Assembly (NCBI RefSeq): GCF_900156625.1
Contig: NZ_FTOB01000003.1
Location: 62,001 to 126,000, forward strand
DNA: 64,000 nucleotides
Reading direction: 5' to 3'
Origin: Zobellia uliginosa
GTDB lineage: Bacteria; Bacteroidota; Bacteroidia; Flavobacteriales; Flavobacteriaceae
The notes below the pieces were generated by a model. That model was not told where the DNA came from and searched no databases. It saw only the letters and a program-made list of their open reading frames with translations. The position numbers were made by a program, and so were the translations under genes. How positions within the stretch are numbered: the first letter of the stretch is position 1; each line of letters begins with the position of its first letter. This document shows, one piece after another, positions 6,049-9,583 of the stretch.

Positions 6049-6510
6049 ATGGAAAATTTGGATCAGATCGATTTAGAGTTGTTAAAACAGCTTCAAAAAA
6101 ACTCGAATATTACTACAAAAGAGTTGGCCGCCATGGTGAATTTGTCGCCAACACCTGTTTATGAGCGGGTGCGAAAACTGGAAAAGGAGGGCTATATCAA
6201 AAAGTATATGGCATTGCTCGATGAGGAAAAGCTGGGGAGGGGACTCATTGTTTTTTGTGATATTACCTTAAAACAGCATACCAAGGAGATCGGTAATAAG
6301 TTCGTAGAGGATATCCGTTCCATAAAGGAGGTAATGGAATGTTATAACATTTCAGGCGATTATGACTTTAAGCTCAAGGTGCTGGTCAGGGATATGAAAG
6401 ATTATCAGGACTTCGTAATCAATACACTTGGTGCGGTCGAGAATATCGGTAGTGCCCATAGTACATTTGTTATCGGTACCATCAAACAAGAGTATGGTGT
6501 TCCGTTTTAG
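6049..6510 (+). CDS. Lrp/AsnC family transcriptional regulator, divergent from metE
   Basis: 153 residues, the standard length. The N-terminal AsnC-type helix-turn-helix covers about residues 4-60 (DQIDLELLKQLQKNS, then the recognition helix around LSPTPVYERVRKLEKEG). A flexible linker leads to the RAM/AsnC ligand-binding domain (about 68-145), with the characteristic GDYDFKLKVLVRDMKDYQDF near residue 105. Family members form octamers or dimers of dimers and answer to amino acids. The divergent pairing with metE suggests control of methionine synthesis, possibly with methionine as effector; this is inference from position. The ATG at 6049 is followed directly by the usual MENLDQID start of this family. 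Confidence 0.93.
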   Translation: MENLDQIDLELLKQLQKNSNITTKELAAMVNLSPTPVYERVRKLEKEGYIKKYMALLDEEKLGRGLIVFCDITLKQHTKEIGNKFVEDIRSIKEVMECYNISGDYDFKLKVLVRDMKDYQDFVINTLGAVENIGSAHSTFVIGTIKQEYGVPF

Positions 6511-6522
6511 TGGGGCGAGATC

Positions 6523-6593
6523 GCAGTTTAGTGTGGTTTATCTACAATTGGGTAGTATTCATTTTAAAAATAGGGTGTAGCAAGGCATCTTTG
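6523..6593 (+). promoter_or_regulatory. Promoter of the 2TM histidine kinase gene with tandem LytTR-type sites
   Basis: Two 9-base sites, GCAGTTTAG (6523-6531) and ACAATTGGG (6544-6552), each match the LytTR direct-repeat consensus [TA][AC][CA]GTTN[AG][TG] at 8 of 9 positions and are separated by exactly 12 bases. A CATCTTTG element (6586-6593, one mismatch to TAnnTTTG) begins 33 bases further on and 51 bases before the kinase ATG. The whole layout is repeated in front of the gene at 8126. Confidence 0.55.
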
Positions 6594-6636
6594 TGTCAAT
6601 ATTGGCAAGACAGGTACTTTTTAGAAAACCATAAAA

Positions 6637-7980
6637 ATGGAAGGTAACAGGATTTTAAAGGAGCTTTTTCGGGGTTTTATTATTGGGAATATCATCTTCT
6701 TTGGGTTTGGTGCGTATTACTATTTTACCGATGAACAAAGGTTTGACATGATCTTTCAAGACGTTTGGAGGGAGTATTTTACCAATCTCGTGTTTTCGGT
6801 AGTCTTGTACGTTGTAAATATGTATTGGTTCTATTTTCTTTTGAAAAAGTTCGAAAGAAATATATATACGGTCAAACGTATGCCTATTGGTGTGCTGGGT
6901 AATGCGATAATATCGTGTTTTGGGGTCTTTGTGGCTACTTTTATCGTTAGGGTAACACTTTATGATAAATCCGTTCAAGAGGCCTTATTGCATCATTCCA
7001 TAGATAATTACCAGCGCTCCACGGCAATTGCCTTGGTGGTGGCTTTAGTCTTTTATGCAATCTACTATTACCGTTATAGGCAGGAAAACAAGGTCAAGGA
7101 GCAAAAAATAATAGCCAATACGGCATCGGCAAAATTCGACGCCTTAAAGAATCAATTAGACCCCCATTTTCTGTTTAACAGCTTAAATGTATTGTCTAGT
7201 TTAATAGAAGAAGATCCTTATCAGGCACAAAAGTTTACCTCTTCCCTTTCAAAGGTTTACCGGTATGTACTTGAACAAAAAAGTAAAGACTTGGTACTTG
7301 TGGATGAGGAGCTTCAGTTTGCAAAAACCTATGTTCGACTTTTGAAAATGCGGTTTGAAGATAGTATCGTTTTTGATATCCCTGAAGCGGCTTTGAATCC
7401 TGAATCGAAGATTGTTCCGCTTTCGCTTCAGTTGCTTTTGGAGAATGCGGTAAAGCACAATGTGGTGACCGCTGGTAGACCTTTGCACTTAAGGGTTTTT
7501 GAACAAGAGGGGGCGCTTGTTGTGGTGAACAACCTTCAAGAAAAGCAAGTGGTGAAGAAAAGTAGTGGTGTGGGCCTGCATAATATTCGCGAGAGATATG
7601 CGCTTCTGACCGATAGAAGGGTTCAAATCGATAAGACCGCTACCGAGTTCAGGGTGAGCCTACCTGTTCTTTTAAAACAAATTTCAAGCATGGAAATGCA
7701 GCAAGAGTATATTGATGATAAGCGCTACGAAAAAGCTAAAAAACGTGTGGAGGCTATTAAAGGCTTTTATGGAAACCTTATGGCATATTGTATTGTGGTG
7801 CCCTTCTTGGCTTTTTTGAATTATAGGACCACGAGTTTTCCGTGGGTGATATTTCCTATTTTCGGTTGGGGCTTTGGGGTGGCTATGCATGCCATGGAGG
7901 CCTTTGGGGCCAATCCGCTTTGGGGTAAGCGATGGGAGGAGAAAAAGATGCGGGAGTATATGGACGATGATAATTTTTAA
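6637..7980 (+). CDS. LytS-like sensor histidine kinase with a C-terminal 2TM domain
   Basis: 447 residues. Four predicted membrane helices lie at about 12-30, 46-70, 83-108 and 127-146, with little extracytoplasmic sequence. A short linker leads to the His_kinase domain of the LytS type, with phosphoacceptor His177 in LDPHFLFNSL. A HATPase domain follows, with its N box in LLENAVKHN near residue 268. After the kinase, from about residue 365, comes a 2TM domain: a charged helix YEKAKKRVEAIKGFY, two membrane helices, then a WxxxKMREYM tail. The same domain is found alone in the next two genes. With the LytTR regulator at 8828 this makes a two-component system. A kinase domain followed by a further membrane domain is an unusual order, and the signal sensed is unknown. 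Confidence 0.9.
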   Translation: MEGNRILKELFRGFIIGNIIFFGFGAYYYFTDEQRFDMIFQDVWREYFTNLVFSVVLYVVNMYWFYFLLKKFERNIYTVKRMPIGVLGNAIISCFGVFVATFIVRVTLYDKSVQEALLHHSIDNYQRSTAIALVVALVFYAIYYYRYRQENKVKEQKIIANTASAKFDALKNQLDPHFLFNSLNVLSSLIEEDPYQAQKFTSSLSKVYRYVLEQKSKDLVLVDEELQFAKTYVRLLKMRFEDSIVFDIPEAALNPESKIVPLSLQLLLENAVKHNVVTAGRPLHLRVFEQEGALVVVNNLQEKQVVKKSSGVGLHNIRERYALLTDRRVQIDKTATEFRVSLPVLLKQISSMEMQQEYIDDKRYEKAKKRVEAIKGFYGNLMAYCIVVPFLAFLNYRTTSFPWVIFPIFGWGFGVAMHAMEAFGANPLWGKRWEEKKMREYMDDDNF

Positions 7981-8021
7981 ACGGACTTTTATCGTCCTTT
8001 GTGAGGTTCAACTAAAGGTTT

Positions 8022-8092
8022 ACAGTTCGGTCATAAAAAATTACAGTTCAGAAAGTAGTATTTTTAAAAGGAGGGTCTTTTGGCGAAATTTG
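8022..8092 (+). promoter_or_regulatory. Promoter of the first free 2TM gene with tandem LytTR-type sites
   Basis: ACAGTTCGG (8022-8030) and ACAGTTCAG (8043-8051) both match the LytTR consensus at all nine positions, with the canonical 12-base spacer. Exactly 33 bases further on lies GAAATTTG (8085-8092, one mismatch to TAnnTTTG), 33 bases before the ATG at 8126. An ATTTT(T)AAAA..AGGGT stretch between sites and -7 box is shared with the promoter at 6523. Confidence 0.65.
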
Positions 8093-8827: not shown

Positions 8828-9583
8828 ATGAAAACCATAGTTATAGAAGATGAAAAGCCGTCGGCAAGGCGATTATCACGTATGTTGTTTGATTTGAACG
8901 TAGAGGTTTCGCAGATGTTGCATTCTGTGGAGGAATCTGTTGAGTGGTTTCAAAACAACCCACATCCCGATTTGATTTTCCTGGATATTCAGCTTTCAGA
9001 CGGACTCTCGTTTGAGATTTTTGATGCCGTGGAGGTGAAGAGTGCCATTATATTTACTACGGCTTACGATGAGTACGCTTTGCAGGCCTTTAAGCTGAAT
9101 AGTATCGATTATTTGTTGAAGCCTATCGATGATGAGGAATTGGAGGCAGCCGTAAAAAAATACAGGTCTTTTAAACCTGAGGCGCGGCCTATGACGCTCA
9201 ATTTTGATGATATAAAAAGTCTTTTGGTGAATCCGTTGGAGCGTGAATACAAAAAGAGATTTACGGCAAGGGTGGGGCAGCACCTTAAAATTATAAATGC
9301 GGATGAAGTGGAGGGTTTTTACAGTGAAAACAAAGGAACTTATGCCGCTACTTCAGATGGTAGAAACTACCTTTTGGATACCACTTTGGAAAATTTGGAA
9401 AACGAGTTGGAACCCAAAACTTTCTTTCGGGTGAGCCGTAAATTTTACATCAATATTAATCATATTAAAGACATCGTTTCGTACGCCAATTCACGTCTTC
9501 AAATCAAATTAAATCATTATAATGGGCAAGAAATTATAGTAAGTCGGGAACGTGTACGGGACTTTAAGCTGTGGTTGGAGTAA
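8828..9583 (+). CDS. LytTR-family response regulator
   Basis: 251 residues. The receiver domain (1-120) has the acidic pair in VIEDEKPS, the phosphoacceptor Asp53 (IFLDIQLSDG), the conserved Thr in IIFTTAYDEYA, and Lys in LLKPID. After a linker the LytTR DNA-binding domain spans about 145-250, with RVGQHLKIINADEVEGFYSENKG near its start and FFRVSRKFYININHIKDI near 200. LytTR proteins bind pairs of 9-base direct repeats, and such pairs occur in front of the kinase gene and the first 2TM gene here, so positive autoregulation of the locus is likely. The cognate kinase is the protein at 6637. Confidence 0.95.
   Translation: MKTIVIEDEKPSARRLSRMLFDLNVEVSQMLHSVEESVEWFQNNPHPDLIFLDIQLSDGLSFEIFDAVEVKSAIIFTTAYDEYALQAFKLNSIDYLLKPIDDEELEAAVKKYRSFKPEARPMTLNFDDIKSLLVNPLEREYKKRFTARVGQHLKIINADEVEGFYSENKGTYAATSDGRNYLLDTTLENLENELEPKTFFRVSRKFYININHIKDIVSYANSRLQIKLNHYNGQEIIVSRERVRDFKLWLE

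Follow-up and report, generated by a model that had tools for sequence, protein, structure and literature searches.

The closest described counterparts of the promoters considered here are those of the LytTR regulatory systems (LRS), whose operons, as tabulated in PMC6193735 (Table 3), carry 9-bp repeats, mostly with a 12-bp spacer and most often 10 bp from the -35 element. Together with a 6-bp -35 element and a gap of 16 to 17 bp, these 10 bp place the repeats 32 to 33 bp from the -10 element. HdrR is described in the same paper as binding and directly activating its own operon. We analyzed a stretch of 64,000 nucleotides of Zobellia uliginosa (Flavobacteriaceae; contig NZ_FTOB01000003.1, positions 62,001 to 126,000 of the forward strand; hereafter the window) in which two promoters, P1 and P2, have tandem LytTR repeats ahead of a -7 box. 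P1 precedes the gene for a histidine kinase and P2 the first of two genes for free 2TM proteins, which are followed by the gene for a LytTR response regulator. Judged from the sequence, P1 and P2 are very probably operators of this regulator (8828-9583), which would bind the repeats and activate weak sigma-A promoters, including its own.

In repeat geometry, predicted autoregulation, and the presence of a membrane protein in the operon, the locus resembles LRS such as HdrRM and BrsRM of Streptococcus mutans. In contrast to the LRS covered in PMC6193735, its regulator includes a receiver domain and neighbors a histidine kinase, its small 2TM genes precede the regulator gene whereas an LRS regulator is encoded upstream of its membrane inhibitor, its promoters would be of the Bacteroidetes -33/-7 type, and its repeats read ACARTTCRG where those of LRS read, for example, ACCACTTAC. 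That about the same distance occurs with a Bacteroidetes promoter would support the same contact geometry. In the LRS-like operons that the paper (Table 3) lists for Bacteroides thetaiotaomicron and B. ovatus, 11 bp separate the direct repeats from a downstream Bacteroidetes promoter whose end reads TATCTTTG, so that the repeat end lies 34 bp (11 + 4 + 19) from the -7 box, near the 33 found here. These operons differ in their 11-bp repeats and 11-bp spacer, in their repeat words (TCCGGTATTCA), and in having a regulator with transmembrane segments and an NfeD/DUF2154 membrane protein as its partner (PMC6193735). The layout of double LytTR sites to which a preliminary description of this DNA drew attention is real in P1 and P2 but is not new, as the LytTR operons presented in PMC6193735 are laid out alike.

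With a LytS-type kinase and a receiver-LytTR regulator, the locus also resembles BtsS/BtsR and YpdA/YpdB as presented in PMC5552118 and PMC4847170. The kinase matches PF06580 with an E value of 4.9e-25 and contains DPHFLFN, LLENAVKHN, and GVGLHNI, the conserved His, N, and G boxes; together with the receiver aspartate and LytTR domain of the regulator, this is the composition of a LytS/LytTR two-component system. In an NCBIfam search, the LytR and BtsR models were best, but far under their cutoffs. To our knowledge, neither BtsS/BtsR nor YpdA/YpdB has a C-terminal 2TM domain or free 2TM proteins, and their targets differ from those predicted here. A further likeness is to PspC/Toastrack envelope stress modules, since a PspC/LiaF-TM/Toastrack gene of Z. 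uliginosa is immediately followed by a weak extra site. LytTR genes are reported in PMC11237479 to occur in Toastrack operons of Firmicutes; in contrast, the genes here are linked by an operator shared over a distance and do not form an operon with the LytTR gene. We place the system among the LytS/LytTR two-component systems; its operator is of the LRS type, but its gene content is not that of an LRS. We found no description of this system, or of a LytTR operator or regulon for Flavobacteriaceae, among the matches listed in a literature search that covers subscription journals thinly. The LytTR and kinase mutations reported in a coevolution study of Flavobacterium johnsoniae (PMC10197871) were not used as a link, orthology not being established.

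Across the Z. uliginosa genome (5.3 Mb, 27 contigs), NCARTTNRG-N12-ACARTTSRG occurs without mismatch at P1 and P2 only (Table 1), and the letters and coordinates of the double sites and -7 boxes in the preliminary description were right. Allowing up to two mismatches gave 95 matches, compared with 41 for a reversed control. Three of the seven one-mismatch matches were read: C12:48633 is the DUF2807 site treated below, and those at C6:63791 and C16:637367 were rejected, both overlapping open reading frames and lacking NAnnTTT 33 bases on. Within the window, a layout pattern written to fit P1 and P2 matched these two promoters only, on either strand, and it matched none of 200 windows simulated with a first-order Markov model. 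Both -7 boxes agree with TAnnTTTG at five of its six fixed positions and lack the first T. From the placing of the box at -12 to -5 in PMC9723704, transcription starts are predicted at 6598 and 8097. The candidate third repeat ahead of P1 overlaps the end and stop codon of the lrp-like gene, and coding conservation alone may explain it.

Table 1. Promoter elements and genes of the kinase/2TM/LytTR locus, in window coordinates
Feature	Coordinates	Strand	Basis or remark
P1 left LytTR repeat GCAGTTTAG	6523..6531	+	Sequence; P1 present in 9/9 genus genomes
P1 right LytTR repeat ACAATTGGG	6544..6552	+	Sequence; conservation in other genera
P1 T/A tract ATTTTAAAA	6561..6569	+	Roughly where a -33 element would sit; tract kept in other genera
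P1 -7 box CATCTTTG	6586..6593	+	33 bases past right repeat
P2 left LytTR repeat ACAGTTCGG	8022..8030	+	Sequence; P2 present in 9/9 genus genomes
P2 right LytTR repeat ACAGTTCAG	8043..8051	+	Sequence; conservation in other genera
P2 T/A tract ATTTTTAAAA	8060..8069	+	Sequence; tract kept in other genera
P2 -7 box GAAATTTG	8085..8092	+	33 bases past right repeat
Candidate third, weaker repeat CCGTTTTAG	6502..6510	+	21 bases (one period) upstream of P1 left repeat; pair score 12.0 in locus L149
LytS/YpdA-type histidine kinase	6637..7980	+	PF06580; C-terminal 2TM domain PF13239; about four N-terminal hydrophobic segments
Free 2TM protein 1, 97 aa	8126..8419	+	PF13239
Free 2TM protein 2, 112 aa	8459..8797	+	PF13239
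Response regulator, proposed activator	8828..9583	+	Receiver PF00072 (Asp53) and LytTR PF04397
Lrp/AsnC-type regulator gene	6049-6510		Ends 12 bases before P1 left repeat

Loss of the repeats at orthologous loci had been named beforehand as the observation that would speak against the proposal. The repeats were kept in 9/9 genomes of the genus, and the layout was found upstream of the kinase gene at 71/72 loci elsewhere. We examined 83 loci, 74 from other genera and 9 from the genus, with a half-site matrix seeded with 10 genus units that included the P1 and P2 sites; the genus loci are therefore not independent of the matrix, and the other 74 are. With a spacer of 12 bases, the best half-site score averaged 20.7 and exceeded 14 at 78 of the 83 loci, whereas the 13 other spacers (6 to 19) gave means of 9.2 to 10.7 with 2 to 13 of the 83 loci above 14, and the minus strand gave 0 to 4. 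When the best site per locus was picked on its repeats only, NAnnTTTG followed exactly 33 bases on at 65 of the 74 loci of other genera, the distance previously claimed for P1 and P2 and true of both; elsewhere in the range of offsets 15 to 59 there was a single match, at 24. The background frequency of NAnnTTTG is 0.25%, which puts 65/74 far beyond chance.

A looser cutoff combined with NAnnTTT at 33 recovered an operator at 72/72 loci of other genera with an annotated kinase frame (L105 and L140, with no long kinase frame annotated, were left out). The operator lay only upstream of the kinase gene at 55 loci, upstream and internally at 16, and only internally, in the gap between the kinase and 2TM genes, at 1. 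The upstream layout occurred at offset 33 in 71/72 loci, compared with 0 to 2 of 72 at each of 8 other offsets and 6 other spacers and 0/72 on the minus strand. At all 17 loci with an internal operator, the gap from the kinase gene to the next gene was at least 89 bases. The element has the makeup of a LytTR operator: two 9-bp direct repeats, a spacer within the expected 11 to 13 bp, and a fixed distance (about 33 bp) to the -7 box. The order kinase-2TM-regulator was found at 73 of the 83 loci, and within the analyzed stretches, the regulator was not seen at 7, the 2TM gene at 1, and a long kinase frame at 2; the kinase is present in 9/9 genomes of the genus.

Conservation along the operator is found in ACARTTCAK-C, in the A-rich center of the spacer, in ACARTTSRG-T, in the T tract (positions 38-42), and in SAnnTTTG. 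The fourth repeat position, given as G in the LytTR consensus first noted for these sites, is actually R, with A at 33 and G at 39 of the 74 right repeats. Of the stretch ATTTT(T)AAAA..AGGGT that P1 and P2 were reported to share, the T/A tract (operator positions 38-46) is widely kept, but other genera do not conserve AGGGT, and both parts are offset by 1 base relative to the repeats between the two promoters. With at most 0.13 bits at positions 47-54 in other genera, AGGGT was rejected as a part of the operator. In the -7 box, the A and the first two T's were found at 74/74 loci, the third T at 71, and the G at 68. Its first base was G at 41, C at 23, T at 7, and A at 3, and so G or C at 64/74, compared with A 494, T 308, G 270, and C 248 in background NAnnTTTG. 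The promoters thus shun the consensus T at the first -7 base, as expected if they depend on help.

To see who binds these operators, we turn to their co-occurrence with kinase and regulator. The operator model, R1, derives from alignment A4, which holds 65 of 90 nonredundant operator sites, 25 having been omitted by hand for brevity. R1 was thus trained on operators of the same loci, filtered for NAnnTTT at 33; its training set being kinase loci, R1 matches at kinase loci are partly circular, while matches elsewhere and absences are not. In a scan of 100 family genomes with stricter filters and a complete tally per genome, operator sites were found in 79, namely, 76/76 with a kinase homologue (E of 1e-70 or better; 2 of the 76 belong to the genus) and 3/24 without (Fisher p of about 1e-18, which is overstated because the genomes share ancestry and are not independent). 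The Z. uliginosa genome has 16 LytTR matches in all, and for the 15 besides the locus regulator, about 5 kb upstream of each gene was scanned on one strand without finding the operator, the best scores there being 6.0 to 10.8; on the same scale, P1 and P2 score 23.7 and 27.4. At the 7 loci with no regulator in the analyzed stretch, the genome has a regulator of 62 to 81% identity in 7/7; three of these genes adjoin the stretch, and four are on a different contig or at least tens of kilobases distant, with the operator still at the kinase gene, as expected for control in trans. These findings support the earlier proposal of a specific operator with autoregulation by the protein encoded at 8828, which is the best reading of an operator that tracks the kinase in the family and for which the search at 15 other LytTR loci came up empty. 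G068, G014, and G029 have regulators of 40 to 52% identity, no operator, and kinases of 32 to 38% in which the match stops short of the 2TM domain; they were treated as other systems.

Several observations weigh against P1 and P2 being operators of an activator encoded in the locus. Nine of the 74 best sites lack an exact NAnnTTTG at 33, and 6 loci with at least 85 bases between the kinase gene and the next gene have no internal site. The extra site of Z. uliginosa outside the locus, the DUF2807 site at C12:48593-48661, is weak (E of 0.84). We infer the coupling of kinase and regulator from gene order alone (kept at the 73 of 83 loci), and likewise activation over repression, sequence alone being compatible with either direction. 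Finally, G058 (88% complete; one site) and G053 (two weak, partial sites) match the operator model, with no regulator match at 1e-20 and no kinase match at 1e-25 in either genome.

Such genomes, together with G013 and the 16 LytTR matches of Z. uliginosa, could mean that P1 and P2 are bound mainly by another LytTR protein, or by several in cross-regulation, and not by the locus regulator. In G013, an operator and a DUF2141 frame are followed by a TPR-like gene that contains stop codons and is cut short (L179 2062-2340). No kinase match at 1e-25 was found in this genome, whose best regulator match has merely 33% identity, and stretch L179, the only one in which 2TM genes were sought, gave no significant kinase, 2TM, or regulator match. 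The broken TPR-like gene, the missing kinase, and the weak regulator match read as the remnant of a recent loss. Considering also that the site tracks the kinase over 100 family genomes, that the roughly 5 kb scanned ahead of each of the 15 other LytTR genes did not reveal it, and that one paralogous kinase locus has different repeat words in a similar layout, we regard cross-regulation as unlikely. Two further operator matches lie on the same contig of G013.

A negative autoregulatory switch, in which the locus regulator binds P1 and P2 but represses them, is in keeping with the sequence as just described, and no positive support for it was counted. The position of the repeats, ahead of the -33 region, matches the distance given for LytTR activator promoters in PMC6193735, and the T tract in the place of the -33 element and the G or C that opens 64/74 -7 boxes give the promoters the look of dependence on help, which makes repression quite improbable. 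Binding of the repeats by the Lrp/AsnC-type regulator (6049-6510), suggested by the end of its gene 12 bases before P1, is hardly credible, as the repeats agree with the LytTR motif and geometry and no Lrp-like gene lies between or just before operator and kinase gene at 8 loci of other genera inspected. In Z. uliginosa, the lrp-like gene precedes the kinase gene, and the locus has two promoters. At the 8 of 74 loci of other genera where upstream genes were read, a DUF2141 gene and/or a TPR-like gene (a label guessed from sequence; Pfam gave no match) stands between the upstream operator and the kinase gene, and the TPR-like gene found no match in the Z. uliginosa genome.

With the locus regulator as activator of P1 and P2, the following mechanism is proposed. 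A signal would reach the kinase and be passed to the regulator by a phosphorelay. A regulator dimer would then bind the two 9-bp repeats, whose 21-bp period amounts to two helical turns, just upstream of the -33 region and recruit sigma-A RNA polymerase to promoters that would be intrinsically weak, with a T tract replacing a recognizable -33 element and a first -7 base that is usually G or C. P1 would drive the kinase gene and P2 the 2TM-2TM-LytTR genes; since P2 would transcribe the regulator gene, a positive feedback loop would be closed. Copies of the operator elsewhere would steer a small cell envelope regulon. More speculatively, the free 2TM proteins may tune the kinase via its homologous 2TM domain.

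The predicted regulon is drawn from operator copies away from the locus. In the genus, extra sites lie before the gene for a 218-aa membrane protein in 8/9 genomes, that of Z. uliginosa being the exception (one frame starts later), and before an alpha/beta hydrolase gene in 2 genomes and a beta-lactamase-like gene in 1, both names coming from sequence reading. A weaker site between a PspC/LiaF-TM/Toastrack gene and a DUF2807 gene was listed in 8/9 genus genomes; it was read in Z. uliginosa and G004 and judged by score and place in the other six. In the family, 20 further sites, hand-picked among the matches listed and not a random sample, lie 20/20 before a gene start: 8 before DUF2141 genes, 7 before TonB-receptor-like genes with a carboxypeptidase-like domain, 3 before DUF2807 genes (in one case with a small gene intervening), and 2 before others. 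The gene types were assigned by Pfam on one or two members each and by likeness for the remainder. Operator copies before DUF2141, TonB-receptor-like, and DUF2807 genes imply that the circuit probably serves cell envelope upkeep, through what would be a compact regulon. A LysR-type gene resembling OxyR, by likeness, is next on the same strand at 5 of the 8 DUF2141 loci (L171, L174, L176, L182, and L185).

The analysis yields a precise 76-base operator model, predicts a small regulon that recurs, and thereby makes a clear prediction about 2TM, DUF2141, and DUF2807, three protein families whose roles are unknown. It suggests that the LytTR-to-promoter distance known from Firmicutes also holds with the divergent Bacteroidetes promoter. 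Recurrence of the operator layout in most sampled family members most likely points to a self-regulating circuit for cell envelope genes. We offer only tentatively, as a possibility we hold to be doubtful, that the locus represents an envelope homeostasis switch spread through the Flavobacteriaceae. Such a switch would join a kinase/LytTR system with LRS-like small membrane antagonists, the free 2TM proteins, pairing with the 2TM domain of the kinase, and would act on SAnnTTTG (S = G or C) sigma-A promoters that are silent without the regulator, its regulon comprising DUF2141, DUF2807/PspC, and TonB-receptor-like genes.

A scan of 198 genomes of the class gave operator matches in 12, 5 in Flavobacteriaceae and 7 outside the family. 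One of the latter reaches 42.7 bits, and the others, some of them partial, 25.6 to 28.7. The genome with the 42.7-bit match (G168:C31:42916-42989) belongs to a different family within the class, and transfer or an older origin of this site is possible.

Similar layouts were seen at paralogous kinase loci. The closest of these, L239 3353-3425, lies in the Z. uliginosa genome (C13) before a kinase/LytTR pair at about 93-95 kb and, like L021 and L019, has tandem TGAATCGGG with a 21-base period. A third, altered copy of TGAATCGGG follows, and GAATTTTA stands about 33 bases on, the same layout in other words; on the other strand, the TGAATCGGG unit resembles the LytTR repeat, which leaves its orientation ambiguous. 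Another paralogous kinase locus, L018 (G003:C35; minus strand, about 580-655), shows TCRTTTCAC repeated in tandem around a 12-base spacer, with TACATTTG following after 34 bases; this locus suggests that flavobacterial LytTR systems may generally share the operator geometry.
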